Below, in pieces: positions 2,643-30,914 of a DNA stretch of 30,914 nucleotides. The number at the start of each line of letters is the position of its first letter. The first letter of the stretch is position 1. The notes below the pieces were generated by a model. That model saw nothing but the letters and a program-made list of their open reading frames with translations. It ran no database searches and was not told where the DNA came from. This stretch comes from a virus: positions 1 through 30,914 of IMG/VR virus record IMGVR_UViG_3300032268_000267; one strand, given 5' to 3'. Both the position numbers and the translations under genes were made by a program.

Positions 2643-2656
2643 AAGAACAAAGATGA
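2390..2656 (+). CDS. -1 frameshift extension of the tail chaperone-like gene
   Basis: This is the -1 frame entered from the slippery site. It has an internal ATG at 2390, but the likely product is a fusion of residues 1-164 of the 1899 protein with this 88-residue extension. It contains NFSKFWGYYIWIAQLSENK followed by a 'VDGITSLPL...LNHLSYLSDL' stretch. That resembles a W-x-Y...LA...F-x-V-x-x-LPL pattern I associate with C-terminal parts of chaperone proteins in Bacteroidota phages (recalled, not searched). It ends KKQMKEQR, with TGA overlapping the next ATG as ATGA at 2653. That coupling is typical of real gene ends and favours this frame as functional. Confidence 0.6.
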   Translation: MDFRKGIVRSFGTLFKEQVDVEGDKDSNNFSKFWGYYIWIAQLSENKVWKVDGITSLPLILCLNHLSYLSDLRSEEEKAIKKQMKEQR

Positions 2657-5899: not shown

Positions 5900-8800
5900 T
5901 GAGTTTACGAATCAGGACTGTAATATCAGGTGTTCACAAATACTTGGATTTATTTGATGATGAAGATATTTTGATGTCATTCTCCGTTGGGGAAATACAA
6001 GATATCACATCAAAGAACTCAAGTTATTCAAAGGCATTCACATTGCCAGGAACGAAGAACAATAATGAAATATTCAACTATTTTTATGATATAAACTCAA
6101 CACCTTTGGATTTTGACCCGAATGATAAATTTGATGCAATTATATCTTGGGATGGTTATGAGATACTAGTTGGAAATATTCGTTTGGATGGGGTTACGAT
6201 TCAAGATGAAGATTTTACTTATCAAGTTACGTTCTATAATCAGGTTGGAAATTTAGCTGCAAACATAGGGGACAAATTCTTACGTCAAACTGACTTATCT
6301 CATTTATCACATCCATTCACATCAGAAGTTATATTACAATCTAATGTTGATTATAACTTATTCCCATTAACTGGTGCGACAAACTATTCATATCAGAATG
6401 GTAAGACGATGTGGGGGCTTTATAATATCGGTTATGATTATACTGGTAATACCCCATTTGTTGATTATGTTGCAACCCCTTTGGTGGAATTTTCAGATTT
6501 GGTTGATGGTGCTTATGACCCTTCAGAAGGTCATTTTGATAATTTTAATTTCCCTGTTAGAGATTATTACTACAAACCAACAATTCAGATTAAAGAATTA
6601 TACTCAAGTATTATTAAAGATGCGGGTTATGAAATACAATCTGACTTTTTTGATACATCTTACTTTGAAAGATTTTATATGCCATTAAAGTTCTTGGATG
6701 AAACCCCATATTCAAGAAACGCTTTAATTCCTTGTTATACTTACATAAATGAAAACTTTTTATTTAGTGGTTCAACTTCAGCATCCACCAATCCGAGTTC
6801 AGGAATAACTTGTAATAATCTTAATTTGTCTGCTAATACTACAAATTTAGCAATACCAGATCTTTATCAAGGAGTATACGATTTTCAGTTCAATTATACA
6901 ATACAATCAAACGGAATTTGTGAGTTTACCATAGTAAACACAGGACCAGGTAATATGACTTTTAGTTATGTTGATAATACACTTCAAGAATTTGTAGTAA
7001 CAATTCCATCTTCAGAAATTGGTATTCCATATACTTATCAAGGGACATTTCTTAGTGTTCAAAGTGGTAATGGGACTGTAACGTCAAGCTCAACTTCAGG
7101 AGCAGCTTTATATGGTCTTATAAGTTATCAACAAGATGATTTTCCTGGTCAAACATTTTATGAAGGGCCTTTTGCTGTGAGATTCGATGAGAATTGCACC
7201 TCTCAATTTCAAAGTTCACAAGTAGAATCTATAGCTAGATTTTCTTTCGTTCGTGGCCCATTCTCAACTCCAAAAATCAATTATCAAATACAATTTTATT
7301 TTGAAGGTAATAATGTTGAAATATCAGATTTCAAGTTTCAGATTTTTGATGCACCAAGATTTCTTTTATCAGGTCAAACATTTGATTATGCTTTAGAATT
7401 TCCTGATAATGATTATAAACAGATAGATTTTATAACTTCAGTCAATAGATATTTTAACTTAGTAGTTGTTCCAAATCCTGATAAACCAAGCAATTTAATT
7501 ATTGAACCAATAGTTGAATATTTTGGTAAGGGTGAGTTATTAGATTGGACGACAAAAGTTGATTACAACCAATTGCAATCAGTAGCACCAACGACCTCTC
7601 TTATCAATGGAACTTTAGATTTTAACTTTCAACTTGACCAAGATTATGCTAATCAAGATTTTAAGAGTGCATCCAATAAAGTATTCGGCACAGATAAAAT
7701 AAATCTGAATATACCATATAAGAACTCAAATATAAATTTTTCATTGATTTTCTCATCCCCTATTGATATCACCATAAATAGCGTGCAGAGTAATTATCTG
7801 ACTTTATCTTCATTTTCTAAGATTAAGAATGTCGATAGTCAAGGGACAAGTTTACAACAATTCCAACCATTCAAAATATTACCACGTGTTGTATTCAGAG
7901 GATTGACATTACCTGCTTTGAATTATGGTTTCACAAGAGTTTTCGGTATCACGCAATTTTTCACTTATGAAGTGCCGTATTATATGCAATCGTTTGCAGA
8001 ACAATTTACACTTCGAACATTCACCAACATCAATAGATTTACAACTTATCCATTCAATTATAGTGGTTTTTCTCACTATATTAACTTCAAAGGTGAAGAC
8101 GTAACTACTATTCAACCAAGAGAATTTGAGTTTATTGCAGAGGACTTATATGACATCTATTACAAAGATTATATTGATGATCTTATTAGTCCTGAAAACA
8201 AAATATACAAAGTAAAAATATATCTTACACCTAATGAGGTAAAACAACTTCGTTATGATGAAAAAATACTAATAAAAAACTCAATATTCAGAGTTAATAA
8301 AATAGAGAACTTCAATTTATTAGAACCATCCATTTGTGATTTAGAACTCATTAAGTTGACAAAGACCTATGATGAACATAAAGTATTATATTATGAGTTA
8401 GTTCCTTGTGCGGGAGGGGCTAGTAGATATTGTAATTCTGATCTAAATTTTAATCTTTATGCCTACATAGGAAACTATGTAACTTTATATGATGATAGTT
8501 TGAATGCTTTAGGTTGTCATCAAGTTCTTCAGGGCTATGATAATCCAAGTAATAACTATCAACATTATTATATCGCTTCAGGATATACTTTTAATCAAGT
8601 AAATGCTTATTCTGATTGTGGATGTTCAGGTTTAACTGCATTTAATGTGGTTCAGGATGGTCAAGCGGTATTACCTCCACCAACACCATCTCCAACCCCA
8701 ACTAATCAAGTAACACCAACAAATACATCTACACCAACACAGACACCAAGCAACTCAGCTACTCCGAGTATGACAGCGAGCAACACTCCTACTCAAACTC

Positions 8801-11343
8801 CGACTATGACTGCTACCCAAACTTCAACACAAACACAGACTCCGAGTCAGACAGCAACTCAAACTCCGACTGTAACACAGACGCCAACTAATACTGTGAC
8901 TAATACTGCAACACAGACACCTACTAATACTGCGTCTAACACACCAACACAAACTCCTACTAATACATCAACTCCTACTCAGACAATAACTCAGACTCCG
9001 AGCAATACGGCAACTCAGACACCTACTAATACTGCGTCTAATACACCAACTCAAACCGCAACAAATACTCCAACAAATACGGCAACCCAAACACCAACTA
9101 ATACTATAACTCAAACTAAAACTCCAACACAGACCCCAACCAATACCGCAACACAAACTCAAACACCTACTCATACTCCGACACCATCGTCAACTCCAAT
9201 ATGCACAGATGAGTTGGTATTGACAGGTTTCACTACAGGCGCAACTTATGCAAATGGAACATACTATAGATTGGAAACTTACTCTGGTGGAACATTCAAT
9301 GTTGGATGGGGAAGATCTGTAGGATCAGAAATTTATTTTGTAGAAGGAGCATTCAGTGGAGATGGATATTCTTATAGTGTATTCTATAAAGAGATTCAAC
9401 CGAATGTTTATGCAACTTTGATTAAGACTAATCTTTGTGATTTCGGGGGATGTGATTGGGCTTTATTTAGAACGACAGGTGGAACATTGGGACAAGTTGC
9501 ATATGAACCAACTTCTAATGGTGCATTTTCGGTTACATTCGATCAAGGTTTCGATTATAACGGGGTTAGATTCATAAATCCTGGTATTCAAGCTTTGACA
9601 CAGGTAACTGTATCATATCCTTTTGTTTGTCCTACTCAAACACCGAGTGTGACACCAACAAATACTGCAACTCCAACTGTAACCCCAACAAATACAGCTA
9701 CTGCAAGTGTAACTCCGACTAGAACGGTAACACCTACTAGCACACCAACACCAACAGCAACATTGTCCACAGGTAATACCGATGCAAATCTATATCTTGA
9801 AGCCGTAGTTCAAGCAGGTGGAACTGGTATAACTTCAACTGTATCAGCAGCAACACAAACCTTATTTGCAGATCTAAAAACATGTGGTGTTTATGATAAA
9901 TTGGATGCTCTATATCCATTCTTAGGTGGAACTGCAGCATCTGCTAAATGGAATGCTAAAAATCCTGTTGATACAAATGCAGCGTTTAGATTGACATTCG
10001 CAGGTGGTATGGTTTATAATCAATCATTCGGTATTCAAGGTAATGCTAGTAATGCTTTTGCGGATACATATTGGGTTGAAAGTGCACAAACACCAACGTC
10101 AGCAAACACAACTATTGGTTTCTTTATTTCAGTTTCAGGAACAGCTGGCTACGAAATAGGAAGACAATATCCTGGTGGTTGGTTAGCGTTAAATGGTTCA
10201 TTATCGAATAATACGATTGGGTCTATTCAAAACTCAACACTTGGAAACTTAACTGCAACGACCCCTTCTCAAGCAATAAACTTCTTCGGTTTAACTAGAA
10301 CAAATAATTCGCAAGTTTCATTTGTGAGAGCAGGTGGAGGAGTTCAAACAGTGACGAGAAATACGGATGTTGCCCGTGCTGGTCAGTCCTTAGCTATTTT
10401 ATTTGCGGCTGGTTTTGGTGGATATTCAAATAGGGGATTAGGAACAGCATTCATTGGTGATGGTTTAACCACAACTGAATTGGGTTGTTTGAGAGATGCA
10501 ATAACAACATTCAACACAACATTAGGTAGAAATATTACTGATCCTAGTGTTTCACCAACCCCAACACCAACAAATACATCAACTCCGAGCAACACCCCAA
10601 CTAATACAACAACTCCAACTTCAACATCGAGTAGCTTCACACCATTAACACTTTGTGTTGATACAGGTGGAATTGGATGGAATACTGATACGGATGCTTG
10701 TAATGGTTTCTGTAACACTCAAACCGTATATGTCCCACAGGCTGGTGTAACTTCATTCCAACAAGCGGCTGTAACTTATGGATTACCACTATATAGTAGC
10801 ACCACATTTACTATAGCAAATAAATTCAATGGTAATAATAAATGGTTTAAGTCAGTAGGAGGAGGTGAGGTATTCCAAGTTGGAACAGATGGTTCAATGT
10901 CAGTATTCGGAGCTTGTCCATCACCAACTCCAACACAAACCTCAACCCCTACGAATACACCAACTGTGAGTGTATCTTCGACACCAGCATCAACACCAAA
11001 TTCAACACCAACTAATACCCCAACTAATACAAGAACTCAAACACCAACTCCAAGTGTGACACCATTACCAACAATTTATACACACGGAACAGTATTGGGA
11101 ACTTGTAGCAATTATTGTAATACAAATTATAACATAACAACATTAACCACAGCAGACGGAAACTATACATCTTTAACTATCGGTGATACGATATATGGAC
11201 AGGGTGGGGTTGCAGGATTTGTAGCATACTCCAATGTATCAACAGATACAACGACTGGTCCATTCAAGATTGCAGAAATAAATACAAGTGGTGTCGTAAC
11301 AGGTCTATTCGAATGTATCGGTGGAAGTTGTTCTCCAATATAA
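5899..11343 (+). CDS. Giant tail hub/fibre protein with five displayed modules on Thr/Pro linkers
   Basis: This 1814-residue protein is the largest in the window. Residues 1 to about 833 form a hub-like region; it begins MSLRIRTVISGVHKYLDLFD and has SYSKAFTLPGTKNNNEIFNY, a pattern I recall from tail/baseplate proteins of Bacteroidota phages. Then follow modules separated by TPTQTPTNT linkers: A (about 834-926, Cys-rich), linker 928-1100, B (1102-1244), linker, C (1293-1551, jelly-roll-like composition), linker, D (1580-1674), linker, E (1725-1814). B and C recur in the 788-aa protein, D in the 334-aa protein and E in the 218-aa protein. Modules are likely receptor-binding or carbohydrate-binding domains displayed at the tail tip, which is inference. 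The linkers contain almost no charged residues and no Asp, so the known Bacteroidota O-glycosylation motif D-S/T-A/I/L/V/M/T is absent from them. Confidence 0.75.
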   Translation: MSLRIRTVISGVHKYLDLFDDEDILMSFSVGEIQDITSKNSSYSKAFTLPGTKNNNEIFNYFYDINSTPLDFDPNDKFDAIISWDGYEILVGNIRLDGVTIQDEDFTYQVTFYNQVGNLAANIGDKFLRQTDLSHLSHPFTSEVILQSNVDYNLFPLTGATNYSYQNGKTMWGLYNIGYDYTGNTPFVDYVATPLVEFSDLVDGAYDPSEGHFDNFNFPVRDYYYKPTIQIKELYSSIIKDAGYEIQSDFFDTSYFERFYMPLKFLDETPYSRNALIPCYTYINENFLFSGSTSASTNPSSGITCNNLNLSANTTNLAIPDLYQGVYDFQFNYTIQSNGICEFTIVNTGPGNMTFSYVDNTLQEFVVTIPSSEIGIPYTYQGTFLSVQSGNGTVTSSSTSGAALYGLISYQQDDFPGQTFYEGPFAVRFDENCTSQFQSSQVESIARFSFVRGPFSTPKINYQIQFYFEGNNVEISDFKFQIFDAPRFLLSGQTFDYALEFPDNDYKQIDFITSVNRYFNLVVVPNPDKPSNLIIEPIVEYFGKGELLDWTTKVDYNQLQSVAPTTSLINGTLDFNFQLDQDYANQDFKSASNKVFGTDKINLNIPYKNSNINFSLIFSSPIDITINSVQSNYLTLSSFSKIKNVDSQGTSLQQFQPFKILPRVVFRGLTLPALNYGFTRVFGITQFFTYEVPYYMQSFAEQFTLRTFTNINRFTTYPFNYSGFSHYINFKGEDVTTIQPREFEFIAEDLYDIYYKDYIDDLISPENKIYKVKIYLTPNEVKQLRYDEKILIKNSIFRVNKIENFNLLEPSICDLELIKLTKTYDEHKVLYYELVPCAGGASRYCNSDLNFNLYAYIGNYVTLYDDSLNALGCHQVLQGYDNPSNNYQHYYIASGYTFNQVNAYSDCGCSGLTAFNVVQDGQAVLPPPTPSPTPTNQVTPTNTSTPTQTPSNSATPSMTASNTPTQTPTMTATQTSTQTQTPSQTATQTPTVTQTPTNTVTNTATQTPTNTASNTPTQTPTNTSTPTQTITQTPSNTATQTPTNTASNTPTQTATNTPTNTATQTPTNTITQTKTPTQTPTNTATQTQTPTHTPTPSSTPICTDELVLTGFTTGATYANGTYYRLETYSGGTFNVGWGRSVGSEIYFVEGAFSGDGYSYSVFYKEIQPNVYATLIKTNLCDFGGCDWALFRTTGGTLGQVAYEPTSNGAFSVTFDQGFDYNGVRFINPGIQALTQVTVSYPFVCPTQTPSVTPTNTATPTVTPTNTATASVTPTRTVTPTSTPTPTATLSTGNTDANLYLEAVVQAGGTGITSTVSAATQTLFADLKTCGVYDKLDALYPFLGGTAASAKWNAKNPVDTNAAFRLTFAGGMVYNQSFGIQGNASNAFADTYWVESAQTPTSANTTIGFFISVSGTAGYEIGRQYPGGWLALNGSLSNNTIGSIQNSTLGNLTATTPSQAINFFGLTRTNNSQVSFVRAGGGVQTVTRNTDVARAGQSLAILFAAGFGGYSNRGLGTAFIGDGLTTTELGCLRDAITTFNTTLGRNITDPSVSPTPTPTNTSTPSNTPTNTTTPTSTSSSFTPLTLCVDTGGIGWNTDTDACNGFCNTQTVYVPQAGVTSFQQAAVTYGLPLYSSTTFTIANKFNGNNKWFKSVGGGEVFQVGTDGSMSVFGACPSPTPTQTSTPTNTPTVSVSSTPASTPNSTPTNTPTNTRTQTPTPSVTPLPTIYTHGTVLGTCSNYCNTNYNITTLTTADGNYTSLTIGDTIYGQGGVAGFVAYSNVSTDTTTGPFKIAEINTSGVVTGLFECIGGSCSPI
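8680..9198 (+). repeat. Longest Thr/Pro linker repeat of the 1814-aa protein
   Basis: About 173 codons of TPTQTPTNTATQ-type units. A 26-base segment at 8914-8939 is repeated exactly at 9016-9041, an offset of 102 bases (34 codons), so the array has grown partly by segment duplication. Confidence 0.85.
9631..9768 (+). repeat. Thr/Pro linker between modules B and C
   Basis: A degenerate repeat encoding TPTNTATPTVTP units between the two globular modules of the 1814-aa protein. Confidence 0.75.
10551..10638 (+). repeat. Thr/Pro linker between modules C and D
   Basis: A short degenerate repeat coding SPTPTPTNTSTPSNTPTNT-like sequence. Confidence 0.7.
10921..11070 (+). repeat. Thr/Pro linker between modules D and E
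   Basis: A degenerate repeat encoding TPTQTSTPTNTP and SVSSTPAST units, ending just before module E (IYTHGTV). Confidence 0.75.
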
Positions 11344-11577: not shown

Positions 11578-12234
11578 ATGAGTTGTTTAACATATACACA
11601 TAATGACCCTTTAGATAGTGGGACAAAATACATTTCAGGAACAACCTGTTTGGGAACCACAGATGTTTATAATCTTAATTTTGGTGATTCTGTATGTATG
11701 GAAGCCGAACTTCCCATTATCATATGTGATGGTATAACAATCAGTGGTAGTTGTAATAGTCCTGTTGTAACACCAACACCGACTCAAACCCCAACTAACA
11801 CAAGCACTCCAAATCAAACTCCAACTCCAACATCAACATTAGGAATAACCCCAACTCCAACTACTACTACAACACCAACTAAAACACCGACTAGCACTCC
11901 AGGTCAATCACCGACACCAACAAGCACATTGACTGCAACTCCAACTCCAACAGGATTACCTCAAATTTATACTCACGGAACGGTTAGAGCAACTTGTTCT
12001 GACTTCTGTAATGCGAATTATCAAATAGATGTTCAAACACCAGCAGATGCTAGTTATGCAGCACTTACAATTGGAGATACAATATATAATCAAGGTGGGA
12101 CAGCAGGATATGTTGCATATGCTGCAACTTCAACCGATACATCAACAGGTGTATTTAGAATAGCACAAATTGATACAAATGGTGAAATATTAGGAATATT
12201 CATTTGTGTTGGTGGATCTTGTGACCCTTTATAA
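11578..12234 (+). CDS. Short structural protein carrying displayed module E
   Basis: A 218-residue protein with three parts. Residues 1-62 form a small Cys-containing N-terminal domain (four Cys; begins MSCLTYTHNDPLDSG). Residues about 64-126 are a TPTQTPTNT linker. Residues about 130-218 are a module starting IYTHGTV and ending GGSCDPL. The C-terminal module is closely similar to the last module of the 1814-aa protein: both have the TIGDTIY-x-QGG-x-AG core and end in GGSC-x-P. It looks like a second, shorter carrier for the same adhesin-like module. It has its own promoter-like motif, so it may be made in different amounts from the giant protein. Confidence 0.7.
   Translation: MSCLTYTHNDPLDSGTKYISGTTCLGTTDVYNLNFGDSVCMEAELPIIICDGITISGSCNSPVVTPTPTQTPTNTSTPNQTPTPTSTLGITPTPTTTTTPTKTPTSTPGQSPTPTSTLTATPTPTGLPQIYTHGTVRATCSDFCNANYQIDVQTPADASYAALTIGDTIYNQGGTAGYVAYAATSTDTSTGVFRIAQIDTNGEILGIFICVGGSCDPL
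11767..11955 (+). repeat. Thr/Pro linker of the 218-aa protein
   Basis: Degenerate repeat of ACN/CCN codons between the N-terminal domain and module E. Confidence 0.75.
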
Positions 12235-12379: not shown

Positions 12380-14728
12380 ATGGCTCAAAAAAGAATTGAC
12401 ATAAAATTCAATGTAGACGATAAGTCAGTAAAAATTGCTGGTGAGGAAACAATGAAGTTGAGCCAACAGGTTCGACTATTAAAGGCTGAACTTGCTAGTG
12501 GTAAATATTCTCAAGAAGAGTTTGAGATATTAGCAACCAAATTGGGGGATGTTGAAGACCAAATGGCAAAGACCAAAACAAGGTCTGGTGACTTATTAAC
12601 ATCCCTTCAACTTATACCAGGCCCCATTGGTGAGATTGCAAGTAAGTTTAATGGAGCAATTGCTTTATTGAAACAATTCTCAGGTTTCAGTTTCAAGGAC
12701 TTAAAATTTCAATTCAAGGAAACTCTTAATGATGTAAAGGACATTGGAAAATCATTAGCAGATGCTACGGGTCTTTCATCACTTTTTGGTAAAACAGTTC
12801 AAGCAACTCAAGAGGGATTCGGTGCTGTCAGTGATGGTGTAAAAACGGCAACCATTAGTGTAAAGGGTTTTAGTAAAGCATTAGTTGCGACAGGTATTGG
12901 TGCTATTGTCGTTGCTGTTGGTCTTATTGTTGCTTATTGGGAGGATATTGTAGGTCTCGTCAATGGGGTATCTAGTGAACAAAAAAAGTTAAATGAGTTA
13001 ACCCAAAAAAATCTTGAAATTGAACAAAAGAAACTATCTGATTTAGATGGCCAAACTAATCAACTCAAACTTCAAGGTAAGACAGAGAAGGAGATTCTCC
13101 AACTCAAAATACAACAAAGTAATCAAGCCATAACTGCGGCAGAAGTTGCGTTACAGAGTGCTGAGGATACTAAAAAGGCTCAAGTTGACGCCGCGAAACG
13201 GAATCAAACAATTTTATCTGGTTTATTACAATTCATAAGTATTCCAATCACAGGGATTTTAGCAACAATAGACGCAGTCAGCGTCGGCCTGAAAGAATTA
13301 GGGGTAATAGAAGAAGCACTCACATTACGTGAAGACACCTTTGATTATCTTTCTTCATTTGTTTTTGACCCCGAAGCGGTTGAAGAAGAAGCACAAGCAG
13401 TCGTTACTACACAACAAGATACACTTAATAAATTAAAGGAACAGCAGGCTGGTTATCAGTTAGCAGTCAAAGATATTGATAAACAGGCAGCGGATAAAAA
13501 AGCGGAGACCACCAAAGAAAATAATGCTAAGGAACTTGAGGCTCAAAAAATCCTTGATGATGCAAAATTACAACAGCAATCAAAACGAGCACAGGAAGAA
13601 GCTGCAATTGAAGCAGATTATCAGGCAAAACTTCTAAAGTTAAAAGAGGCTGGTATAGAGGATGATGGTAGTTTGTTAGCACTACGAGATGCTAAACTCA
13701 AAGAATTAAGGGATAAGTATGCCGCTGAAGAATTAAAGAGACAACAAGATTTACAAAATCAACTCAGAAAAATAGAAACATCAAGGACTGAAACCTTGAT
13801 GGATGATGCACAACTTGAGATTGATATTGTGAATCAAAAGTATGAAGCACTTATTGCTGCGGCGAAAGCTAACAATGAGGAGTTCAAAACTTTAGAAGCA
13901 CTACAAGCAGCTGAAATAGAAAAAATAAGAACTGATGCTACACTCAAGGAAAACGAAAGATTAGCGGCAAATGCTGAAAAGACAAAACAAGATAATCTAA
14001 AACTTCTACAAGACGAACAGGCTTACGAACAAGAAAGATTTGCAATGAAGGCACAGGCATTGGATGGTATCATTCAACTTGCTGGTGCTGAAACTGCTGT
14101 TGGTCGGGCAGCTTTGGTTGCAAAACAAATCCTATTGGCAAAAGAATTAGTATTGGAGGTTAAGAAAAATATTGCATTCTCAAAAAGTGCATTGGCTCGT
14201 TCCCAAGTCGCTGTGGCTGAAGGCACGGCACAAACCGCAAAAATTGGTTTTCCACAAAATATAATTCCGTTAGCATTATATGCAGTTCAAGCTGCCAGTA
14301 TCATTGGTGCAATTATTAGTGCTACGAGAGCTTCAAAAACTTCTGTAGATGTCGGTGGATTAGAAGGTGGAGCAGGAACCGCACCAACCGCAGCAGCACC
14401 AACAGGAGTGGTTGCAAGAAGAAATCAAGGTGGATTTGTTTATGGTGATGGAGGGTCAATTACTGATTCCATACCAGCGATGTTATCCAATGGAGAGTTC
14501 GTGATGAATGCAAAGTCAGCATCGATGTTCTCACCAATGTTGACAGCAATGAATGATGTTGGAAACTTGCCAAATATAGGTTTACCACAGTCAATAGGTA
14601 ATCAGTCATTGGTTGATGTTATGGCTCAAACTGCCAACAATAGACCTATCAAAACTTATGTGACAGCACAAGATATGTCTAACCAACAACAGTTTGATAG
14701 AACCATTAAATCAAGGTCATTGATATAA
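12380..14728 (+). CDS. Tail tape measure protein
   Basis: This 782-residue protein sets tail length and occupies the tail lumen. Residues 1-70 are helical. A hydrophobic helix lies at about 167-187 (ALVATGIGAIVVAVGLIVAYW) and a weaker one at about 268-292. Long charged coiled-coil segments run from about 200-260 and 345-560, rich in Lys/Glu/Ala/Gln. The C-terminal part has QGGFVYGDGGS and SIPAMLSNGEFVMN (about 683-712), a signature often seen near the end of tape measures. Length would suggest a tail of roughly 115 nm using the usual 0.15 nm per residue rule. Start follows the previous stop by 1 nt. Family is clear from architecture; tail length is inference. Confidence 0.85.
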   Translation: MAQKRIDIKFNVDDKSVKIAGEETMKLSQQVRLLKAELASGKYSQEEFEILATKLGDVEDQMAKTKTRSGDLLTSLQLIPGPIGEIASKFNGAIALLKQFSGFSFKDLKFQFKETLNDVKDIGKSLADATGLSSLFGKTVQATQEGFGAVSDGVKTATISVKGFSKALVATGIGAIVVAVGLIVAYWEDIVGLVNGVSSEQKKLNELTQKNLEIEQKKLSDLDGQTNQLKLQGKTEKEILQLKIQQSNQAITAAEVALQSAEDTKKAQVDAAKRNQTILSGLLQFISIPITGILATIDAVSVGLKELGVIEEALTLREDTFDYLSSFVFDPEAVEEEAQAVVTTQQDTLNKLKEQQAGYQLAVKDIDKQAADKKAETTKENNAKELEAQKILDDAKLQQQSKRAQEEAAIEADYQAKLLKLKEAGIEDDGSLLALRDAKLKELRDKYAAEELKRQQDLQNQLRKIETSRTETLMDDAQLEIDIVNQKYEALIAAAKANNEEFKTLEALQAAEIEKIRTDATLKENERLAANAEKTKQDNLKLLQDEQAYEQERFAMKAQALDGIIQLAGAETAVGRAALVAKQILLAKELVLEVKKNIAFSKSALARSQVAVAEGTAQTAKIGFPQNIIPLALYAVQAASIIGAIISATRASKTSVDVGGLEGGAGTAPTAAAPTGVVARRNQGGFVYGDGGSITDSIPAMLSNGEFVMNAKSASMFSPMLTAMNDVGNLPNIGLPQSIGNQSLVDVMAQTANNRPIKTYVTAQDMSNQQQFDRTIKSRSLI

Positions 14729-18922: not shown

Positions 18923-21289
18923 ATGATATTATTAAAATCCAACCAATTAAATAAGATTGTTGTAACGCTCACACAGAACACTACTGTTTGCGATCCTGAA
19001 TATCTATTTCAATTTGTTCATATATTCTCCAAACAAGAGGTTAAATTCATTTTGCCTGATGTATCACCGCATCCAACGAGATATAATCAATTTGAATTTG
19101 TTGAAGGTCAAGGTGTGGGTCAGATACCATTCCCTTATGAAGGACAATATAATTATTATGTGTATGCCCAACCCTTTGGTTCAGGTAACCTGAATCCATT
19201 GCAAGCCACCGAGTTGGTTGAAAATGGTATTGCTGACTTCATTGTTGTAAGTGCGGATACAACAAATGAATATTATTTTGAGTTTATTTCCAATGATGAA
19301 ATAAATTCTAATACTATTTTTGCTCCTGATGAGATAAATCCTCCAACAGCGACTCCTACTCAAACAACAACTAGAACTCCAACTCCTACTCAAACACCTA
19401 CTCAAACCGCAACTCCAACTACCACTCCAACTAATACTCCTACTAATACTTCAACACCAACTAATACTCCAACTCAAACAAATACTGCAACACAAACGCA
19501 AACTCCTACCCAAACACAAACTCAAACTCAAACAAATACTGCAACACAAACGCAAACTCCGACTCCAACCCCATCTAATACTCCAAATGCAGTTTGTCCT
19601 GAATCATTCACTGTTAGTGATGCTATTTTTAGTCCTGTGTTTGATAATGGAGTTTATGAAAGACAATATTTGGCTTCGGGTCAAACATTCCAATCTGGTT
19701 ATGTTTTATCTAACTCATTGAGTGGAGGATATGTTGTATTAGGAACAGCTCCTGACGGAAATAATTACAGCATATTTCAATATCAAGATTTTAGTGATAT
19801 AAATACTGTCTATGTTCGTTTCAATTTATCAGGAGAATCACGTGGATGGCATAGTATGGAACAATCTGTAAATATTTTGTCATCAGGTTCTACTTGGGTA
19901 GGAGCAGCTATCAACTTATTTGATTTCAGTGCTGCTACAACTAGTTCAATTGATTTTGGGGGAATTAAATTCCCAAGATCAGGTATGAATTTAGGAGGAT
20001 ATATTACTTATCCAGTAGTATGCCCTACTCCAACTCCAACTAGAACTCCAACTCAAACTCCAACAAATACTCAAACTCCAACAAATACTCAAACTCCAAC
20101 AAATACTCCGTCTCAAACTCCTACGCAGACAGCAACCAATACTTCTACGCCAACTCAAACAGCAAGTAACACCCCAACTCAAACACCAACTCAAACACCA
20201 ACAAATACTGCATCTCAAACCCCTACGCAGACAGCAACCAATACTGCTACTCCAACACAAACTCCAACCCAAACTCCTACAAATACTGCAACTCAAACAC
20301 CAACAAATACTGCTAGTCCGACTAGAACTCCGACTCCAACAAATACTGCAACTCAAACACCAACAAATACTGCTAGTCCGACTAAAACTCCGACTCCAAC
20401 AAATACTCCAACCCAAACATCTACACCAACTAATACTGCAACGGTAACTTCCAGTCCAACGATGACTCCAACTCCATCTACAACTCCTCCGCAAGGTCTT
20501 GCTCAAGCTCAGTTGTATCTCAATACAGTTGTGACATCAGGTGGAACAGTTGATGCAACTGCATCAGCGGCAACAATAACAATGTTCTCATCTTTATTCT
20601 CTAATAATTTATGGGATAAAATATATTCTTTCTATCCTGTTTTGGGTGGAGTTGCTGGATCACATTGTTTGGACGCTAAAAATCCATTATCTGGAAATAC
20701 TTTGGCATTCAATGGAGGATGGACTCACAATTCAAGTGGTATGCAACCTAATGGAACAAATGGATATGCAGATACTAATTTTAATCCATTGACAAGAATT
20801 GGAGATGGTAATACTTCTTCTTTAGGTATTTATGTCAATTTGCAAGGAACAGTTGGAGATAGAATTTACGATATGGGTGTCGCACAAGATGCTACATTAT
20901 TGACTGATATGTGGAATCTCACAGCAAAAAGAACATCAGGATCTGGTAATAATACTCTATTTGATTCTGGTGATTATCCTAATGCTAGAGTTGAAACAAC
21001 ATCACAAGCATCGGCATCAGGTATGACAATAGGTTCTGTGAGGAGTTCAACAGATAGAATTTTATATAGAAATGGATCAAGTATTGCAACTCAAACTACA
21101 AACCAAGCTATTCAATATGGTAATAGAAACTTGGTCATTGGAGCTCAGAGAGGTGCTACTATAGATTTTTATAGCTCCAACAGATATGCATTTGCATTGA
21201 TGGCTTCAGGTTTAACAAATACTGAAATAGTTAATCTATCAAGTATAATAAACACGTATCAAACTTCATTAGGAAGAAACACATATTAA
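18923..21289 (+). CDS. Fibre protein with displayed modules B and C on Thr/Pro linkers
   Basis: 788 residues. Residues 1-140 form an N-terminal anchor domain (MILLKSNQLNKIVVTLTQNT, then a 'YLFQFVHIFSKQEVKFILPD' pattern familiar from small structural proteins of Bacteroidota phages). Linker about 141-222; module B (about 225-367, begins CPESFTV and ends PVVC); linker about 368-523; module C (about 525-788, begins LAQAQLYLNTVV and ends SLGRNTY). B and C are in the same order as in the 1814-aa protein and share short blocks with it, for example 'LGRN' at the module C end and 'YP-x-LGG' inside. The anchor differs from the giant protein, so the same adhesin pair is mounted on another virion site. 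The gene sits among head genes, far from the tail genes. Confidence 0.72.
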   Translation: MILLKSNQLNKIVVTLTQNTTVCDPEYLFQFVHIFSKQEVKFILPDVSPHPTRYNQFEFVEGQGVGQIPFPYEGQYNYYVYAQPFGSGNLNPLQATELVENGIADFIVVSADTTNEYYFEFISNDEINSNTIFAPDEINPPTATPTQTTTRTPTPTQTPTQTATPTTTPTNTPTNTSTPTNTPTQTNTATQTQTPTQTQTQTQTNTATQTQTPTPTPSNTPNAVCPESFTVSDAIFSPVFDNGVYERQYLASGQTFQSGYVLSNSLSGGYVVLGTAPDGNNYSIFQYQDFSDINTVYVRFNLSGESRGWHSMEQSVNILSSGSTWVGAAINLFDFSAATTSSIDFGGIKFPRSGMNLGGYITYPVVCPTPTPTRTPTQTPTNTQTPTNTQTPTNTPSQTPTQTATNTSTPTQTASNTPTQTPTQTPTNTASQTPTQTATNTATPTQTPTQTPTNTATQTPTNTASPTRTPTPTNTATQTPTNTASPTKTPTPTNTPTQTSTPTNTATVTSSPTMTPTPSTTPPQGLAQAQLYLNTVVTSGGTVDATASAATITMFSSLFSNNLWDKIYSFYPVLGGVAGSHCLDAKNPLSGNTLAFNGGWTHNSSGMQPNGTNGYADTNFNPLTRIGDGNTSSLGIYVNLQGTVGDRIYDMGVAQDATLLTDMWNLTAKRTSGSGNNTLFDSGDYPNARVETTSQASASGMTIGSVRSSTDRILYRNGSSIATQTTNQAIQYGNRNLVIGAQRGATIDFYSSNRYAFALMASGLTNTEIVNLSSIINTYQTSLGRNTY
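19345..19587 (+). repeat. First Thr/Pro linker of the 788-aa protein
   Basis: A degenerate array of ACT/CCA/CAA/AAT codons linking the anchor domain to module B. A CAAACAAATACTGCAACACA block occurs twice. Confidence 0.8.
20024..20490 (+). repeat. Second Thr/Pro linker of the 788-aa protein, with recent DNA duplications
   Basis: About 155 codons. Bases 20281-20340 and 20341-20400 are a 60-bp tandem repeat differing at one base only. An 18-bp unit CAACAAATACTCAAACTC also repeats near 20060-20105. Near-identity means these copies are recent compared with the diverged rest of the array. Confidence 0.88.
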
Positions 21290-26578: not shown

Positions 26579-26650
26579 ATGCAGATTCAAAAAAGGGTTT
26601 GTTACGCCATTGATTCCCTTTCCCCCTTACTCACTAGTAAGGGGGTTTTT
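26579..26650 (+). ncRNA. Candidate small RNA (two hairpins)
   Basis: From the motif to the terminator T run there are about 72 nt. AAAGGG (26592-26597) pairs with CCCTTT (26616-26621), and this hairpin abuts the terminator stem at 26622-26645. This is the plan of many bacterial small RNAs: promoter, hairpin, terminator. Its 3' part is antisense to the end of the minus-strand gene. The call rests on sequence layout only. Confidence 0.35.
26622..26650 (+). terminator. Rho-independent terminator
   Basis: CCCCCTTACT (26622-26631), loop CACT, AGTAAGGGGG (26636-26645), then TTTTT. A perfect 10-bp stem. The stop codon of the minus-strand gene lies inside it; the minus direction lacks a T run. Confidence 0.85.
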
Positions 26651-27058
26651 ATTTACATTAACATTTTTATTTGGATTTCTCACTCCATTGGCAAACCATT
26701 GAGATTCTTCACTTTTGCTTCTTTTTCTATATTTCATTGGTTTCTTCATTGTGGGGTTATATCTGTCAATAAATTGTTGATGAATATCTTTATTAACATC
26801 ATACCCCATTTGTTTTAATAATTCCCACATCAACTCATATTCTTCTTTTCTAACACCAGATAAAGAGAAAAACTTTGAGTCTGGTTGTCTCCACATTTGA
26901 TTGAATGGGTGGACAATATGATCTTTATTTACTTTTACTCCGTGCTGTTTGCATGTCTTGCAAATGGGCAATTTACCACCTCGACAATTTTTACATCTGT
27001 AAAATGATTCGATGGATTTTTCAATTTTACATGCGTTGCAGATTTTCTTTTCTTCCAT
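26627..27058 (-). CDS. Zinc-ribbon-like protein (only minus-strand gene)
   Basis: 143 residues. The N-terminus has CNAC (residues 8-11), YRCKNC (about 21-26) and ICKTC (about 32-36), six Cys in three CxxC pairs in 30 residues, typical of a treble-clef or zinc-ribbon found in phage HNH nucleases and small regulators. The remaining part is basic (MKKPMKYRKRSKSE near the C-terminus) with a W-rich central helix (YELMWELLKQMGYDVN). It may be an HNH-like nuclease lacking a clear His-Asn-His centre, or a nucleic-acid-binding regulator. Its opposite orientation and own motif copy (27062-27071) suggest separate control. Confidence 0.6.
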   Translation of the reverse strand: MEEKKICNACKIEKSIESFYRCKNCRGGKLPICKTCKQHGVKVNKDHIVHPFNQMWRQPDSKFFSLSGVRKEEYELMWELLKQMGYDVNKDIHQQFIDRYNPTMKKPMKYRKRSKSEESQWFANGVRNPNKNVNVNKNPLTSE

Positions 27059-27264: not shown

Positions 27265-27274
27265 TATATTTATT
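27265..27274 (+). promoter_or_regulatory. TATATTTATT start-proximal motif, copy 7
   Basis: A copy identical to that at 26564. It immediately precedes a structured RNA of about 100 nt instead of an ATG. Confidence 0.5.
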
Positions 27275-27275
27275 G

Positions 27276-27374
27276 ATGTCCCTTCTGACAACATAGGACA
27301 TTAAAGAAATTATAGAACCCCTGTAAAGTATTCCTTGAAGTCAGAAGCAAGTGGAGAAATATGGGGGTTTTTTT
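27276..27374 (+). ncRNA. Candidate structured RNA with kissing loops and a terminator
   Basis: Hairpin 1: ATGTCC (27276-27281) pairs with GGACAT (27296-27301). Its loop contains CTTCTGAC (27282-27289). Hairpin 2: a stem AACCCC (27316-27321) / GGGGTT (27364-27369) encloses a small helix CTTG (27334-27337) / CAAG (27348-27351). The loop of that helix contains GTCAGAAG (27340-27347), the exact reverse complement of the hairpin 1 loop. A run of seven T follows (27368-27374), as in an intrinsic terminator. It could be a free small RNA, or an attenuator/riboswitch controlling the HTH gene that begins at 27382. I do not match it to any known riboswitch. Confidence 0.6.
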
Positions 27375-27381
27375 ATTACTA

Positions 27382-27747
27382 ATGAAAAATAAAATTAGTG
27401 AAATTGAAATAATGATTAGAGGTATATTAGGAAAAGATAAATTTCTAATGTTGAATATGACTCTAATAAAAAAGTTAGATCCTAATAGTGCTTGTTTTTT
27501 AACTTATCTTTTAGATAAATATGAGTTTTTAGTGAAATCTAAACAAATTGAAGATACTGAGGGGATGTCAGTGTATAGAAGAGAATTATCTGATAAACTG
27601 AATTTAAGTCCTTATCAACAACGAAAAATTGAAAATCAATTATGTTCATTGAATTTAATTTCAATAAGAGAAATGAGAGTTGAACAAGAAACTTTTAATT
27701 TATATTATTTTCATATCGCTCAGATTTATGATTTCGTTGAAAAATAA
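27382..27747 (+). CDS. Winged-helix DNA-binding protein, possible replication initiator
   Basis: 121 residues from ATG 27382. An in-frame ATG exists at 27361, but it lies in the terminator stem of the upstream RNA and would add MGVFLLL, so the later start is preferred. The middle part YLLDKYEFLVKSKQ and SVYRRELSDKLNLSPYQQRKI followed by ENQLCSLNLISIREM looks like a winged helix with the recognition helix at about residues 75-95. The pattern 'L-x-x-L-x-L-S-x-x-x-x-R-x-I-x-x-L' is shared with phage replication and regulatory proteins. It is followed directly by an iteron-like array with a long palindrome, so a role in initiation of replication is plausible but unproven. Confidence 0.55.
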   Translation: MKNKISEIEIMIRGILGKDKFLMLNMTLIKKLDPNSACFLTYLLDKYEFLVKSKQIEDTEGMSVYRRELSDKLNLSPYQQRKIENQLCSLNLISIREMRVEQETFNLYYFHIAQIYDFVEK

Positions 27748-27752
27748 CTATA

Positions 27753-27904
27753 CCCCCATTAAAAAACTAAACCCCCCCCTAAAGAAACTTGAGGCTGATA
27801 CTATAACATTACTATATTATAAATAATAAATTTAATATAGAATAGTTATAGTATCCCCCTTAAAAAACTAAACCCCCCCATAAAGAAATTTAACCCCCCT
27901 ATAG
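27753..27904 (+). repeat. Origin-like array: C-tract direct repeats flanking a long palindrome
   Basis: Direct repeats R1 (27753-27790) and R2 (27855-27891) share CCCCC, TTAAAAAACTAAA, a 7-8 C run, and TAAAGAAA followed by CTT or TTT. A partial third copy is AACCCCCCTATAG (27892-27904). Between R1 and R2 lies an inverted repeat, GATACTATAAC (27797-27807) and GTTATAGTATC (27845-27855), with further imperfect pairing inward (CTATATTA / TAATATAG) around an AT-rich centre. Repeats plus AT-rich hairpin next to a DNA-binding gene resemble a replication origin; an operator array or attenuator is the alternative. Confidence 0.6.
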
Positions 27905-27908
27905 TAAA

Positions 27909-28112
27909 ATGAAAAATGAAATTAAATTACATTATGAAATAGTTGAAGAAATAATCGATATGTTGAAAGAACATCAAGAGCATCAATTATATCTTTTGAC
28001 TGATTATACTCAGTTTGAATTATATGAAGACAGATTATGTTATGCTAAAGATTATATAGAAGCAGGAGATATGATACAACATCTAAAAGAATTATTAAAT
28101 GAACGAACATAA
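27909..28112 (+). CDS. Small hypothetical protein
   Basis: A 67-residue, acidic, helical protein (MKNEIKLHYEIVEEIIDMLK) begins 4 nt after the repeat array. It overlaps the next gene by 14 nt. No domain recognised. Its place beside the origin-like array and HTH genes suggests an early gene. Confidence 0.55.
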   Translation: MKNEIKLHYEIVEEIIDMLKEHQEHQLYLLTDYTQFELYEDRLCYAKDYIEAGDMIQHLKELLNERT

Positions 28113-28284
28113 CCCCGAGTTTCAGAGAGGCAATGATTCTAATCTTACTTCAATGGAAAGATTAAACCAGCATCAGATATGGTTACAGAAGCAACATAAA
28201 GATGTTAGAGATAATATCAATTCAAAGATAAAGGTTGAAGAGAAACCAGTTCAAGGTTTTCCCAAAGATGAAATCGAAGATTAG
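28099..28284 (+). CDS. Small hypothetical protein
   Basis: A 61-residue, Asn/Gln/Lys/Asp-rich protein (MNEHNPEFQRGNDSNLTSME start). Helical in the centre (LNQHQIWLQKQHKDVRDNIN) with a Pro-containing acidic end. Overlaps the upstream gene in another frame. Unknown function. Confidence 0.5.
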   Translation: MNEHNPEFQRGNDSNLTSMERLNQHQIWLQKQHKDVRDNINSKIKVEEKPVQGFPKDEIED

Positions 28285-28289
28285 ATTTT

Positions 28290-28299
28290 GATATTTATT
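28290..28299 (+). promoter_or_regulatory. GATATTTATT start-proximal motif, variant copy 8
   Basis: A one-base variant of TATATTTATT ending 3 nt before the ATG at 28303, matching the spacing of the other copies. Confidence 0.4.
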
Positions 28300-28302
28300 A
28301 TT

Positions 28303-28563
28303 ATGAAACAAAGATTAGAACAAGAACTCGGACAATTCATTAACTTGATGGATAAGCAGTATTTTGAGGTATCACCAGAAGATAGGGATTCAATTGCAAG
28401 AATGGTGATCATAAGAGAATTTTTAGATTTGAAAGCAGATCCGAGTTCCTTACCCATATATCTTGAATATCTCTCAACGAAAGTAGATCATTTCAAAGCA
28501 AATGAAAATTATGAAGCAGCAGATTTCTTTGAAAGAATAAAAAATCAAATTATTTCATTTTAA
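28303..28563 (+). CDS. Small helical hypothetical protein
   Basis: 86 residues from ATG 28303 (MKQRLEQELGQFINLMDKQYF). A TTG codon five codons upstream would extend the frame but falls inside the start-proximal motif, so it is rejected. The sequence is helical, with SPEDRDSIARMVIIREFLDL and a final ENYEAADFFERIKNQI. No family recognised. Confidence 0.55.
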   Translation: MKQRLEQELGQFINLMDKQYFEVSPEDRDSIARMVIIREFLDLKADPSSLPIYLEYLSTKVDHFKANENYEAADFFERIKNQIISF

Positions 28564-28564
28564 G

Positions 28565-28597
28565 TATTGACCATAGTCAATATAGTGTGTATATATT
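28565..28597 (+). promoter_or_regulatory. Sigma70-like promoter overlapped by an operator-like palindrome
   Basis: TTGACC (28567-28572) is followed 17 nt later by TATATA (28590-28595), or 19 nt later by TATATT. TATTGAC (28565-28571) and GTCAATA (28576-28582) form a perfect 7-bp inverted repeat with loop CATA over the -35 region. The next gene encodes an HTH protein, so self-repression is likely. Confidence 0.6.
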
Positions 28598-28615
28598 AGT
28601 ATAACAAAAAAGAAT

Positions 28616-28870
28616 ATGAAAAATTTGAATGACAGAAGAATTTACAACTATCTTGTAAATGAAATGTGCACCAGTCTCACTTTGGGAACCAAAGTAACCA
28701 ATACCCAAATAGCAAAAGATTTGGATATTTCAGTTTTTACTGTAAGGGATAAAATTATCAAAATGGTAAAAAAAGGGTATCTAAATTCACATATTGATTA
28801 TTTCGATGAGAATAACAAATATGTTCAAAGAAAAATAACAAAAGGGAGCATCGAGCCATCAATGTTATAA
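28616..28870 (+). CDS. Winged-helix transcription regulator
   Basis: 84 residues. The segment VTNTQIAKDLDISVFTVRDK (about 27-46) followed by IIKMVKKGYL is a classical helix-turn-helix with wing, as in small phage repressors and MarR/GntR-like domains. The remainder is a short basic C-terminus (KYVQRKITKGSIE). It is preceded by a strong promoter overlapped by a palindrome, which suggests autoregulation. It lies between early small genes and the sigma-like gene, so it may time their expression. Confidence 0.65.
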   Translation: MKNLNDRRIYNYLVNEMCTSLTLGTKVTNTQIAKDLDISVFTVRDKIIKMVKKGYLNSHIDYFDENNKYVQRKITKGSIEPSML

Positions 28871-28882
28871 TTCGAATGTATC

Positions 28883-29380
28883 TTGATACAAGGTTGGATT
28901 CAGGACAATCATAATAGATTGTTCGAAATAACTACAAAAATAAGCAAAGGGCAGAATACAGATGATTTGTTCCAACTTTGTATAGAAGAACTTCTGAATA
29001 ATCGGGTGATAGATTCTGTGCCCGATAATCAGAAGTTTTTTTATTTTGCTAGAATTGTCAGAAATCAATACCATTCAAAGAACAGCAAATTCCATAAAGT
29101 ATATCGCAAACATCAATTTACATCTTTGGATTCGAATATTGATATAGCTCAAGAAGAATACGAATCCCCATTTATCACAATGGAATGGTTGATTGAAGAA
29201 GTTGAAAAGATAAGAAAAGAACAATGGTATCTTGGACAAATCTTCTTATTATATTTATCAAAGGGGGGGAACCTGACAAAATTATCTAAACTTACAGGTA
29301 TTCCGATCAATAATCTATCAAGAGATATTAAAATTGTGAAAGGTATACTGAATAATAAACTCAACGAAAAAATTAAATAA
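28883..29380 (+). CDS. Sigma factor-like protein (TTG start)
   Basis: 165 residues. The only in-frame start near the upstream stop is TTG at 28883; no ATG lies in frame before residue 98. The first half (GWIQDNHNRLFEITTKISKG, then DDLFQLCIEELLNN and FFYFARIVRNQYH) has the order of sigma-70 region 2: helix, 'DL-x-Q', then 'fl-x-x-i-x-RN'. The second half (FLLYLSKGGNLTKLSKLTGI, then INNLSRDIKIVKGILN) resembles the region 4 helix-turn-helix. I recall similar sigma-like proteins in Bacteroidota phages. It may direct host RNA polymerase to the phage motif TATATTTAT(A/T); that link is inference. No divergent codon use. Confidence 0.65.
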   Translation: MIQGWIQDNHNRLFEITTKISKGQNTDDLFQLCIEELLNNRVIDSVPDNQKFFYFARIVRNQYHSKNSKFHKVYRKHQFTSLDSNIDIAQEEYESPFITMEWLIEEVEKIRKEQWYLGQIFLLYLSKGGNLTKLSKLTGIPINNLSRDIKIVKGILNNKLNEKIK

Positions 29381-29381
29381 T

Positions 29382-29708
29382 ATGGGCTGTAATTGCAAAG
29401 GTAATAAACGACAAACCAAAACTGTTGTTGTAAATAACGAAGTTCATATACAAACCGAACCTATGACATTAGAATCACTTATTGGGGATCAACAACCCCC
29501 ATTCACAAGACAAGAAGTTCAACGAGCTCTTGATTACCTTGCTGGTATAACAAGTTCCTATGATGAGAAATTATACCTCTACGACTTTCATAACAAGTAT
29601 CACAGAGAACAACTACAACCAAGTTGTGCTGTGTGTTTACCAAGAATCCAAAGTCGTATAAACGATATGAAAATCATATTAGACAACTATGACAAAAAGA
29701 GTTTATAA
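29382..29708 (+). CDS. Small Cys-containing phage protein (MGCNCKGN start)
   Basis: 108 residues. It starts MGCNCKGNKRQTK, with further Cys at about 82 and 85 (CAVC), so a CxC/CxxC zinc site is possible. The middle part (PPFTRQEVQRALDYLAGITS) is helical. Small 'MGCNC' proteins are common in Bacteroidota phages near the packaging genes (recalled), but their role is unknown. It overlaps the small terminase gene by 20 nt in another frame. Confidence 0.55.
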   Translation: MGCNCKGNKRQTKTVVVNNEVHIQTEPMTLESLIGDQQPPFTRQEVQRALDYLAGITSSYDEKLYLYDFHNKYHREQLQPSCAVCLPRIQSRINDMKIILDNYDKKSL

Positions 29709-30144
29709 ACCAACTGGTAGACCTATTGGCAGACCAAAGGTTACTATGGATGAGTTCCCCAAAGGTTGGAAAGAAGAGTTAATTAGAATGGGGAAAGAAG
29801 GTATGTTAGATATTGATTGTAAGGTATATCTTAACATTTCCAACGAGACATTTACAAGAATGATGATTGAAGAACCCGAATTTGCGGAATCCGTTTCTAT
29901 GATGAGACAATTATCTCATTCTTGGTGGGCTAGATTACCAAGAGAAGCATTCGGTTCGGGGACATCAAAACAGATGAACTCAAACCTTTATTCATTGGTA
30001 ATGAGAAATAAATTCAAGGACGAATGGAACAATGCAGAATCCAAAGTTGATATCACAACTCAAGGAGATAAATTGGATTCCAATAAAAAGATTGAAATAG
30101 AAATTGTAAGGAAACTGACAGATGGCGACAAAGACAAAAAGTAA
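29689..30144 (+). CDS. terS: Terminase small subunit (putative)
   Basis: 151 residues. N-terminal basic part (TGRPIGRPK, then FPKGWKEELIRMGKEGM) followed by YLNISNETFTRMMIEEPEFA, MMRQLSHSWWARLPREAF and NLYSLVMRNKFKDEW. This order ('GRPK', HTH with 'ETF', 'S-x-x-WW', 'N-x-x-L-x-x-x-x-x-x-NKF-x-x-EW') matches small terminase subunits of several Bacteroidota phages in my memory. It would recognise phage DNA and recruit the large subunit. The large subunit is at the other end of the window; joining the ends would place them about 1.5 kb apart with methyltransferase genes between. Confidence 0.65.
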   Translation: MTKRVYKPTGRPIGRPKVTMDEFPKGWKEELIRMGKEGMLDIDCKVYLNISNETFTRMMIEEPEFAESVSMMRQLSHSWWARLPREAFGSGTSKQMNSNLYSLVMRNKFKDEWNNAESKVDITTQGDKLDSNKKIEIEIVRKLTDGDKDKK

Positions 30145-30250
30145 TACAGAAAGAAAAATCCTACTCAACAAAAAGAAAGCGGGAGTAGCAAGAAAAAAGT
30201 TTAGTGGTAAAGACCAAAAACCTAAACGATATAGAGGACAAGGGAGATGA
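30122..30250 (+). CDS. Tiny highly basic protein
   Basis: A 42-residue protein (MATKTKSNTERKILLNKKKA start, ending in a Lys/Arg-rich KPKRYRGQGR) overlaps the small terminase by 23 nt and stops 1 nt before the methyltransferase ATG. Over one third of residues are Lys or Arg. Nucleic-acid binding during packaging is a reasonable guess; there is no recognised domain. Confidence 0.5.
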   Translation: MATKTKSNTERKILLNKKKAGVARKKFSGKDQKPKRYRGQGR

Positions 30251-30251
30251 T

Positions 30252-30914
30252 ATGAAACAAGAGACACAAATGTTCTGTGGGGACTCCGCAGTTGAACTAT
30301 TAAAAATCAAAGATAATTCCGTAGATATGTTATGTTCTGACCCTCCGTATGGATATTCGTTTATGAATAAGGGTTGGGATAAAGTATTACCAAATACAGA
30401 AATATGGAGACAGAGTTATAGGGTATTGAAACCTGGTGCGTTTATAACAATTATGGCAGCACCAAGAACGGATGTATTATGGAGAATATCACGAGACCTT
30501 GAAGAAGCGGGGTTTGACTTATCATTCACCAATATTGAATGGGTGTATCATAGTGGATTCCCCAAAGCAACAGATGTCAGTAAGTCATTAGATAAAAGAT
30601 TAGGTGGTGAGAGAGAGGTTAAAGATAAAGTAGTATTACCATATAAAGATAAAAATAGAAGTCCATTAAAGGTTGATGATGGATGGAATGAAAATAGTAT
30701 GAAGGCTGAGTTTGATATTACCGAACCAGCAACTGATTTAGCAAAAAAATACGAAGGTAGTAAGGCAGGTTTCCAGCCGAAACCTTCAAGGGAAATAATC
30801 ATCGTTGGAATGAAACCATTTAGTGAGGGGTCGTATGTTGATAAGGTATTAAACTTTGAGGCATTACCAGATAATATCAAGATGACTTATCCACTTATAC
30901 AAACCCCAAAACCA
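30252..30914 (+). CDS. DNA methyltransferase, N-terminal part (runs off window)
   Basis: 221 residues are visible without a stop. Near the start are FCGDSAVELLKIKDNSVDML and the catalytic SDPPYGYSFM (DPPY at residues 30-33), the motif IV of N6-adenine/N4-cytosine methyltransferases. YRVLKPGAFITIMAAPRTD follows, then FTNIEWVYHSGFPKATDVS and the substrate/target part with KPSREIIIVGMKPFSEGSY. It should methylate phage DNA and protect it from host restriction or mark it for packaging. If the window ends are joined, the frame continues directly into the fragment at 1-189, but the expected GRFPANLLVSDD block would be missing, so some sequence may be absent at the join. Confidence 0.85.
   Translation, partial: MKQETQMFCGDSAVELLKIKDNSVDMLCSDPPYGYSFMNKGWDKVLPNTEIWRQSYRVLKPGAFITIMAAPRTDVLWRISRDLEEAGFDLSFTNIEWVYHSGFPKATDVSKSLDKRLGGEREVKDKVVLPYKDKNRSPLKVDDGWNENSMKAEFDITEPATDLAKKYEGSKAGFQPKPSREIIIVGMKPFSEGSYVDKVLNFEALPDNIKMTYPLIQTPKP

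Follow-up and report, generated by a model that had tools for sequence, protein, structure and literature searches.

Rep leaders of the pT181 and pIP501 type consist of a promoter, a structured leader and an intrinsic terminator ahead of a replication initiator gene, and loop-loop contacts matter in them. The put RNAs of HK022 are two-hairpin RNAs located just past an early phage promoter, and in lambda a phage promoter is associated with a short terminated RNA at the late operon (PR' and 6S RNA) or beside the origin (oop RNA). A two-hairpin RNA unit that invites comparison with these systems can be read directly from the sequence at positions 27273-27374 of the window, the whole 30,914-nt stretch of virus DNA analyzed here (positions 1 to 30,914 of IMG/VR record IMGVR_UViG_3300032268_000267), and is named the kissing-loop terminator leader in this analysis. 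With a probability that we put at roughly 0.55, it represents a new family of attenuator leaders that act in cis in Bacteroidota phages, a kissing loop forming part of the terminator of a replication operon. Gene timing in Bacteroidota phages is little known, and because three named isolates whose hosts are in culture carry the leader (the hosts include Cellulophaga baltica #18 for phi18:3 and Flavobacterium sp. LMO6 for snusmum), its function is directly testable. It would be an intrinsic terminator in which the loop serves as a conserved site of tertiary contact; we know of no other example, and targeted literature searches found none.

The elements of the unit all lie on the plus strand. 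Hairpin 1 (27276-27301) has a stem formed by ATGTCC (27276-27281) and GGACAT (27296-27301) and a 14-nt loop composed of CTTCTGAC and AACATA, the former being the 5' part of the loop and the first kissing strand, K1 (27282-27289). A single-stranded, A-rich and nearly invariant linker, TAAAGAAATTATAG (27302-27315), leads to hairpin 2 (27316-27369), with an outer stem of AACCCCUGUA (27316-27325) and UAUGGGGGUU (27360-27369), a conserved internal loop (AAGUA/GAAA), and an inner stem of CUUG (27334-27337) and CAAG (27348-27351) that extends beyond the bulged T27352. The apical loop (AA plus GTCAGAAG) holds the second kissing strand, K2 (27340-27347), and GTCAGAAG is the exact reverse complement of CTTCTGAC, giving an 8-base loop-loop match. 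Seven T (27368-27374) follow the G-rich arm, the signature of an intrinsic terminator, and the predicted terminator indeed combines a GC-containing stem with a U run directly after it; the T run is retained among family members. A start codon at 27361, within the terminator arm, was ruled out by the relatives, which read ACGGGGG there. The original prediction of two hairpins with exactly complementary 8-base loops before a T run is thus present in full in the sequence, and its hairpin 2 was right as to loop, stem and T run, although the inner stem and the conserved internal loop had been missed. The fold of the window leader (-27.2 kcal/mol, z = -2.4 against shuffles) is modest by itself. A chance match had been called unlikely, and complementary 8-mers in loops of 14 and 10 nt are indeed expected by chance in about 21 x 4^-8 = 3e-4 of hairpin pairs; at that rate, however, the match in one sequence alone is only suggestive, and it is the homologues that decide.

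Three relatives, all with the kissing-loop terminator unit, were recovered through similarity to the downstream protein, and the loop pairs of the window and these three are CTTCTGAC/GTCAGAAG, GTCTTCAC/GTGAAGAC, GTTCTGAC/GTCAGAAC and CTTCTCAC/GTGAGAAG. Patterns drawn from outside the loops gave contigs L006, L007, L010 and L012, looser patterns gave two more groups with different stems, and blastn with the short RNA as query gave Cellulophaga phage phi18:3, where the unit is intergenic and unannotated and lies at about 3172-3074 on the minus strand of KC821620. A covariance model made without the kissing pairs retrieved L082 (CTCATCAC/GTGATGAG) as well as a second L180 copy (GGTCTCAC/GTGAGACC), the loops being complementary along their full length in both. 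Blastn from this second copy extended the family to the Flavobacterium phages snusmum and hattifnatt, which carry the loops GCTTCGAC/GTCGAAGC; the snusmum unit lies at about 9708-9815 of MN812234. The leader is therefore distributed over uncultured phage contigs and the isolated phages phi18:3, snusmum and hattifnatt. Altogether, seven distinct loop 8-mers were found (CTTCTGAC, GTTCTGAC, CTTCTCAC, GTCTTCAC, CTCATCAC, GGTCTCAC and GCTTCGAC), and every one of them is complementary to its partner loop at all positions. The most frequent 8-mer was itself contained in the patterns that retrieved some group members, which biases its frequency, and these members are not independent evidence for the kissing helix, whereas the remaining members are; those retrieved without requiring loop complementarity are still complementary, with different 8-mers.

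Across 19 sequences, all 8 pairs of the kissing helix are formed in 100% of cells, with two-sided changes in 4 of them. In the same 19 sequences, 17 of the 25 pairs of the whole structure are doubly changed (11.2 in shuffles), and the covariation score was 0.437 against 0.146 in shuffles, with slid registers reaching at most 0.138. The three other helices co-vary as well, and two-sided changes occur in every helix, including 6 of the 7 pairs of the hairpin 1 stem across the family. The covariation of the outer stem is understated, since MAFFT misaligns this stem between subfamilies. Compensatory changes in both loops, as expected of a structured RNA with a kissing loop, are thus found, and the leader structure, including the kissing helix, is strongly supported by the comparison of sequences. 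The proposal of a kissing-loop RNA between promoter and terminator is borne out by this covariation, and no homologue lacking loop complementarity, which would have spoken against it, was seen among those found. Within the window clade, identity between the window and L002/L003 is 94-95% in the RNA, the unpaired linker and loop tail included, compared with 43-53% in the 200 nt upstream and 75% in the downstream ORF.

Complementarity alone does not separate pairing within one molecule from pairing between two, and loop 1 of one RNA might instead bind loop 2 of a second molecule, producing dimers or rings like those of phi29 pRNA, a reading for which the different loops of copies within one phage could also be cited. 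We regard it as very improbable, as the linker of 13-14 nt is probably sufficient for an intramolecular contact (an estimate from geometry only) and no pRNA-like three-way junction is present.

The RNA appears to fall outside described families. The suggested Rfam search returned no match at the gathering threshold in Rfam 15, and a relaxed search gave only weak ones, the best sub-threshold matches being exemplified by BTnc231 (17.4 of the 80.4 bits needed); no published description of such an RNA was found in the literature searched, which covered few subscription journals. Beyond the family, blastn of the 2-kb region found no match among phages, plasmids gave chance matches only, and a scan of genome contigs gave 14 matches, none of them with a kissing partner. 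The covariance model found none in 395 Bacteroidia genomes, a weak negative given that 10 candidates were scored per genome. Because no convincing unit was seen in Flavobacterium phage 6H or Bacteroides phage B124-14, the device is not universal. Mimicry of a CRISPR repeat and a ToxI-like antitoxin were set aside as readings, since the stems are free to change in sequence and the downstream genes include no recognizable toxin.

A promoter-like motif had been noted before hairpin 1, and the box itself stands, but it is of the Bacteroidota -7 type (TAnnTTTG) and not sigma-70; a scan for sigma-70 promoters matched about as often as in shuffles, and the Bacteroidota box was adopted instead. In the window, the box is TATATTTA (27265-27272, plus strand), which agrees with TAnnTTTG at 5 of 6 positions and ends 3 nt 5' of hairpin 1, and the same TATATTTA occupies this position in most of the window clade. 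Members outside this clade mostly have an exact box ending 3-5 nt before hairpin 1, so the putative promoter conforms to the Bacteroidota sigma-A type in 6 of 6 positions in most of them. Over half of the 24 members compared carry an exact box at fixed spacing, against a background of 2% in random 29-nt stretches. The promoter box and the isolated relatives indicate that the host of the window virus is probably a member of Bacteroidota. In Flavobacterium, transcription starts 4-5 nt past the -7 box (PMC6847099), and the TAnnTTTG consensus is also given elsewhere (PMC9723704); the transcript of the window leader should therefore begin at hairpin 1, with a predicted +1 at about 27277, and should end at the T run to give an RNA of about 97 nt. 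Antisense -7 boxes opposite the leader were found in 7 of 22 members against a background of 14%, which is no clear enrichment, and at scattered distances; none is present in the window.

This predicted transcript would coincide exactly with the structured RNA, both of its ends lying within structure, which speaks for the main rival to a cis attenuator, a free sRNA acting in trans. The unit would then be a free-standing gene of about 100 nt, with its own promoter and terminator, acting on a host factor (RNA polymerase, ribosome) or an mRNA, and its intergenic site would merely be favoured. The unpaired linker TAAAGAAATTATAG and the loop tail equal the helices in conservation, which would suit such an RNA, as would the distance to the next ATG in phi18:3: the ATG of the operon lies about 7-50 nt past the terminator among members, and about 50 nt past it in this phage. 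Against this, the unit sits directly before replication operons in unrelated phages, and the downstream gene has no separate promoter box, a sense -7 box being found 0-60 nt past the terminator in none of 22 members. Moreover, the loop 8-mers do not recur elsewhere in phage genomes beyond chance, which gives no sign of a phage target that covaries with the loops. An sRNA is, on balance, rather unlikely. Among the roles offered by the original prediction, namely a small RNA and an attenuator or riboswitch controlling the operon, that of an attenuator-like leader agrees best with the data: in many phages the unit immediately precedes the replication operon, and no other promoter box stands between them. 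With no such box between the terminator and the first gene, the downstream operon seems reachable only by read-through, although in phi18:3, L180 and snusmum the preceding genes run in the same direction and promoters upstream of the leader could feed the operon as well.

In the window, the first gene of this operon (27382-27747, plus strand) encodes a 121-aa wHTH-like protein without family match, its ATG lying 7 nt past the T run. It is placed with replication initiators by position only, its counterpart in L003 being likewise without family match; in relatives, replication initiators occupy its position. Small ORFs, an HTH protein and a methyltransferase make up the rest of the co-directional operon (27909-30914, plus strand), which, were the contig circular, would run on as far as the terminase large subunit (728-1867). 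Both contig ends (30204-30914 and 1-562) apparently lie within DNA methyltransferase sequence, as would seem to be expected for a circularly permuted or circular genome. Between the first two operon genes (27745-27905), C-tracts (TTAAAAAACTAAACCCCCCC repeats) flank an imperfect inverted repeat, GATACTATAAC...GTTATAGTATC. Elsewhere in the window, a strong terminator hairpin, CCCCCTTACTCACTAGTAAGGGGG-TTTTT (26622-26645), is found near the end of the rightward operon and adjoins a leftward endonuclease VII-like gene (26627-27058), and presumed structural proteins (2653-3657, 5899-11343, 11578-12234 and 18923-21289) have long, low-complexity stretches rich in Thr, Pro and Gln (PTQTPT).

Among the homologues, the genes after the leader mostly start DNA replication, and their families are unrelated to each other. 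The next gene encodes a DnaD-like helicase loader in phi18:3 (gp006), replication initiation or O-like proteins in L143, L153 and L009, primosomal-protein relatives and DUF6291 in L108 and L180, a DnaB-like helicase in L182, an AAA_24 protein in L183 and a helicase in snusmum. The second L180 copy is followed by an HNH gene, a Gp157-like ORF (our own reading, without family match) and ERF. In L186 (3087; MN812234 9791) and L187 (1587), the annotated helicase start falls inside the leader RNA, and the ATG after the terminator is the likely start. Since the downstream proteins are unrelated, a single protein binding its own leader is unlikely as a common mechanism. The consistent proximity to initiator genes could also point to an origin-linked RNA, priming or activating phage replication as a primer or R-loop, with the kissing fold setting its 3' end; this seems very unlikely, as some copies precede HNH or recombination genes.

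A descriptor requiring only a -7 box, a 5' hairpin, a terminator and a loop-loop match of 6 or more matched 18 distinct places in 2.1 Mb compared with 0.5 in shuffled DNA; one of the 18, in L014, looks like chance. Besides the family, the descriptor picks up smaller units whose loops differ, and these are supported by few sequences. A GTCGTCG/CGACGAC unit precedes an HNH gene in L180 and snusmum and is also found in mumin, and a TAGTGG/CCACTA unit precedes an HNH-like ORF in L208. Such smaller units stand directly before NUMOD4/HNH-type endonuclease genes in L180 (7120-7225, minus strand), L209 (13649-13745), L210 (about 11150-11250) and L208 (about 12380-12483, minus strand). In L181 (about 11580-11678, minus strand), a unit with the 6-nt loops GGTCAG/CTGACC precedes a Gp157-like ORF, a place comparable to that of the second L180 copy, whose loop pair differs. 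L180 itself holds three candidate units, with loops that are all different. Such leaders with differing loops, each before another gene, fit a cis device better than a single trans-acting sRNA. More tentatively, they might belong to a general class of kissing-terminator leaders, a modular timing switch in which several copies with different loops each lock the terminator of one middle operon and share one joint release signal. If this were true, replication, recombination and homing endonuclease operons would be released together by a phage or host signal.

Returning to the attenuator, a plausible sequence of events can be drawn. Host RNA polymerase would start at the TAnnTTTG promoter, with the transcript beginning at the hairpin 1 base, and would make hairpin 1, the A-rich linker and the hairpin ending in the U run in that order. 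Loop 2 precedes the U run by about 20-27 nt, so it should already be out of the polymerase by the time the U run is transcribed, and would be free to pair with loop 1 when the decision to terminate or continue is taken. The default product would be the terminated RNA of about 97 nt, and the replication operon would be expressed only through read-through. Candidate signals include a phage-made antitermination factor, a host factor, a metabolite and polymerase speed, any of which might alter the kissing fold or the polymerase and so set the timing of the replication genes. We infer read-through control from the position of the unit and the absence of another promoter box, and likewise infer termination in vivo and the direction of the kissing effect. 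Against an attenuator, visual inspection of sequences revealed no helix that could act as an alternative antiterminator.

Alternatively, the leader, alone or with a phage factor, might act like put or nut and make the polymerase resistant to termination across a long operon. Its location just past the promoter, the two conserved hairpins with conserved loops and the long co-directional operon downstream would be compatible with such a role, and several leaders per phage could make up one regulon. Hairpin 2, however, doubles as a terminator that carries a U run in the members, unlike the hairpins of HK022 put, and this possibility appears improbable.

The attenuator leader proposed here thus resembles several known systems in part. 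Like phi29 pRNA, it is a phage RNA with complementary loops, but those of pRNA are short and intermolecular and belong to another fold, and the window phage has an ordinary TerL of the Terminase_3 type and no Rfam match that would place its leader with pRNA. In purine and 2'-dG riboswitches, too, kissing loops organize a conserved RNA ahead of a gene; here, by contrast, there is no three-way junction, the terminator lies inside the kissing fold, and the downstream genes are unrelated. Lambda PR'/6S and oop share with it a short terminated RNA from a phage promoter, whereas control in lambda is exerted by Q at the DNA or by antisense, with no kissing terminator. HK022 put RNAs are likewise two-hairpin RNAs close after a phage promoter; the put hairpins, however, antiterminate and are not terminators, and the leader has no Rfam match. 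The pT181/pIP501-type leaders have the same layout of promoter, leader, terminator and initiator gene, with termination driven there by an antisense RNA from the opposite strand, whereas here the partner loop is located in the same RNA.
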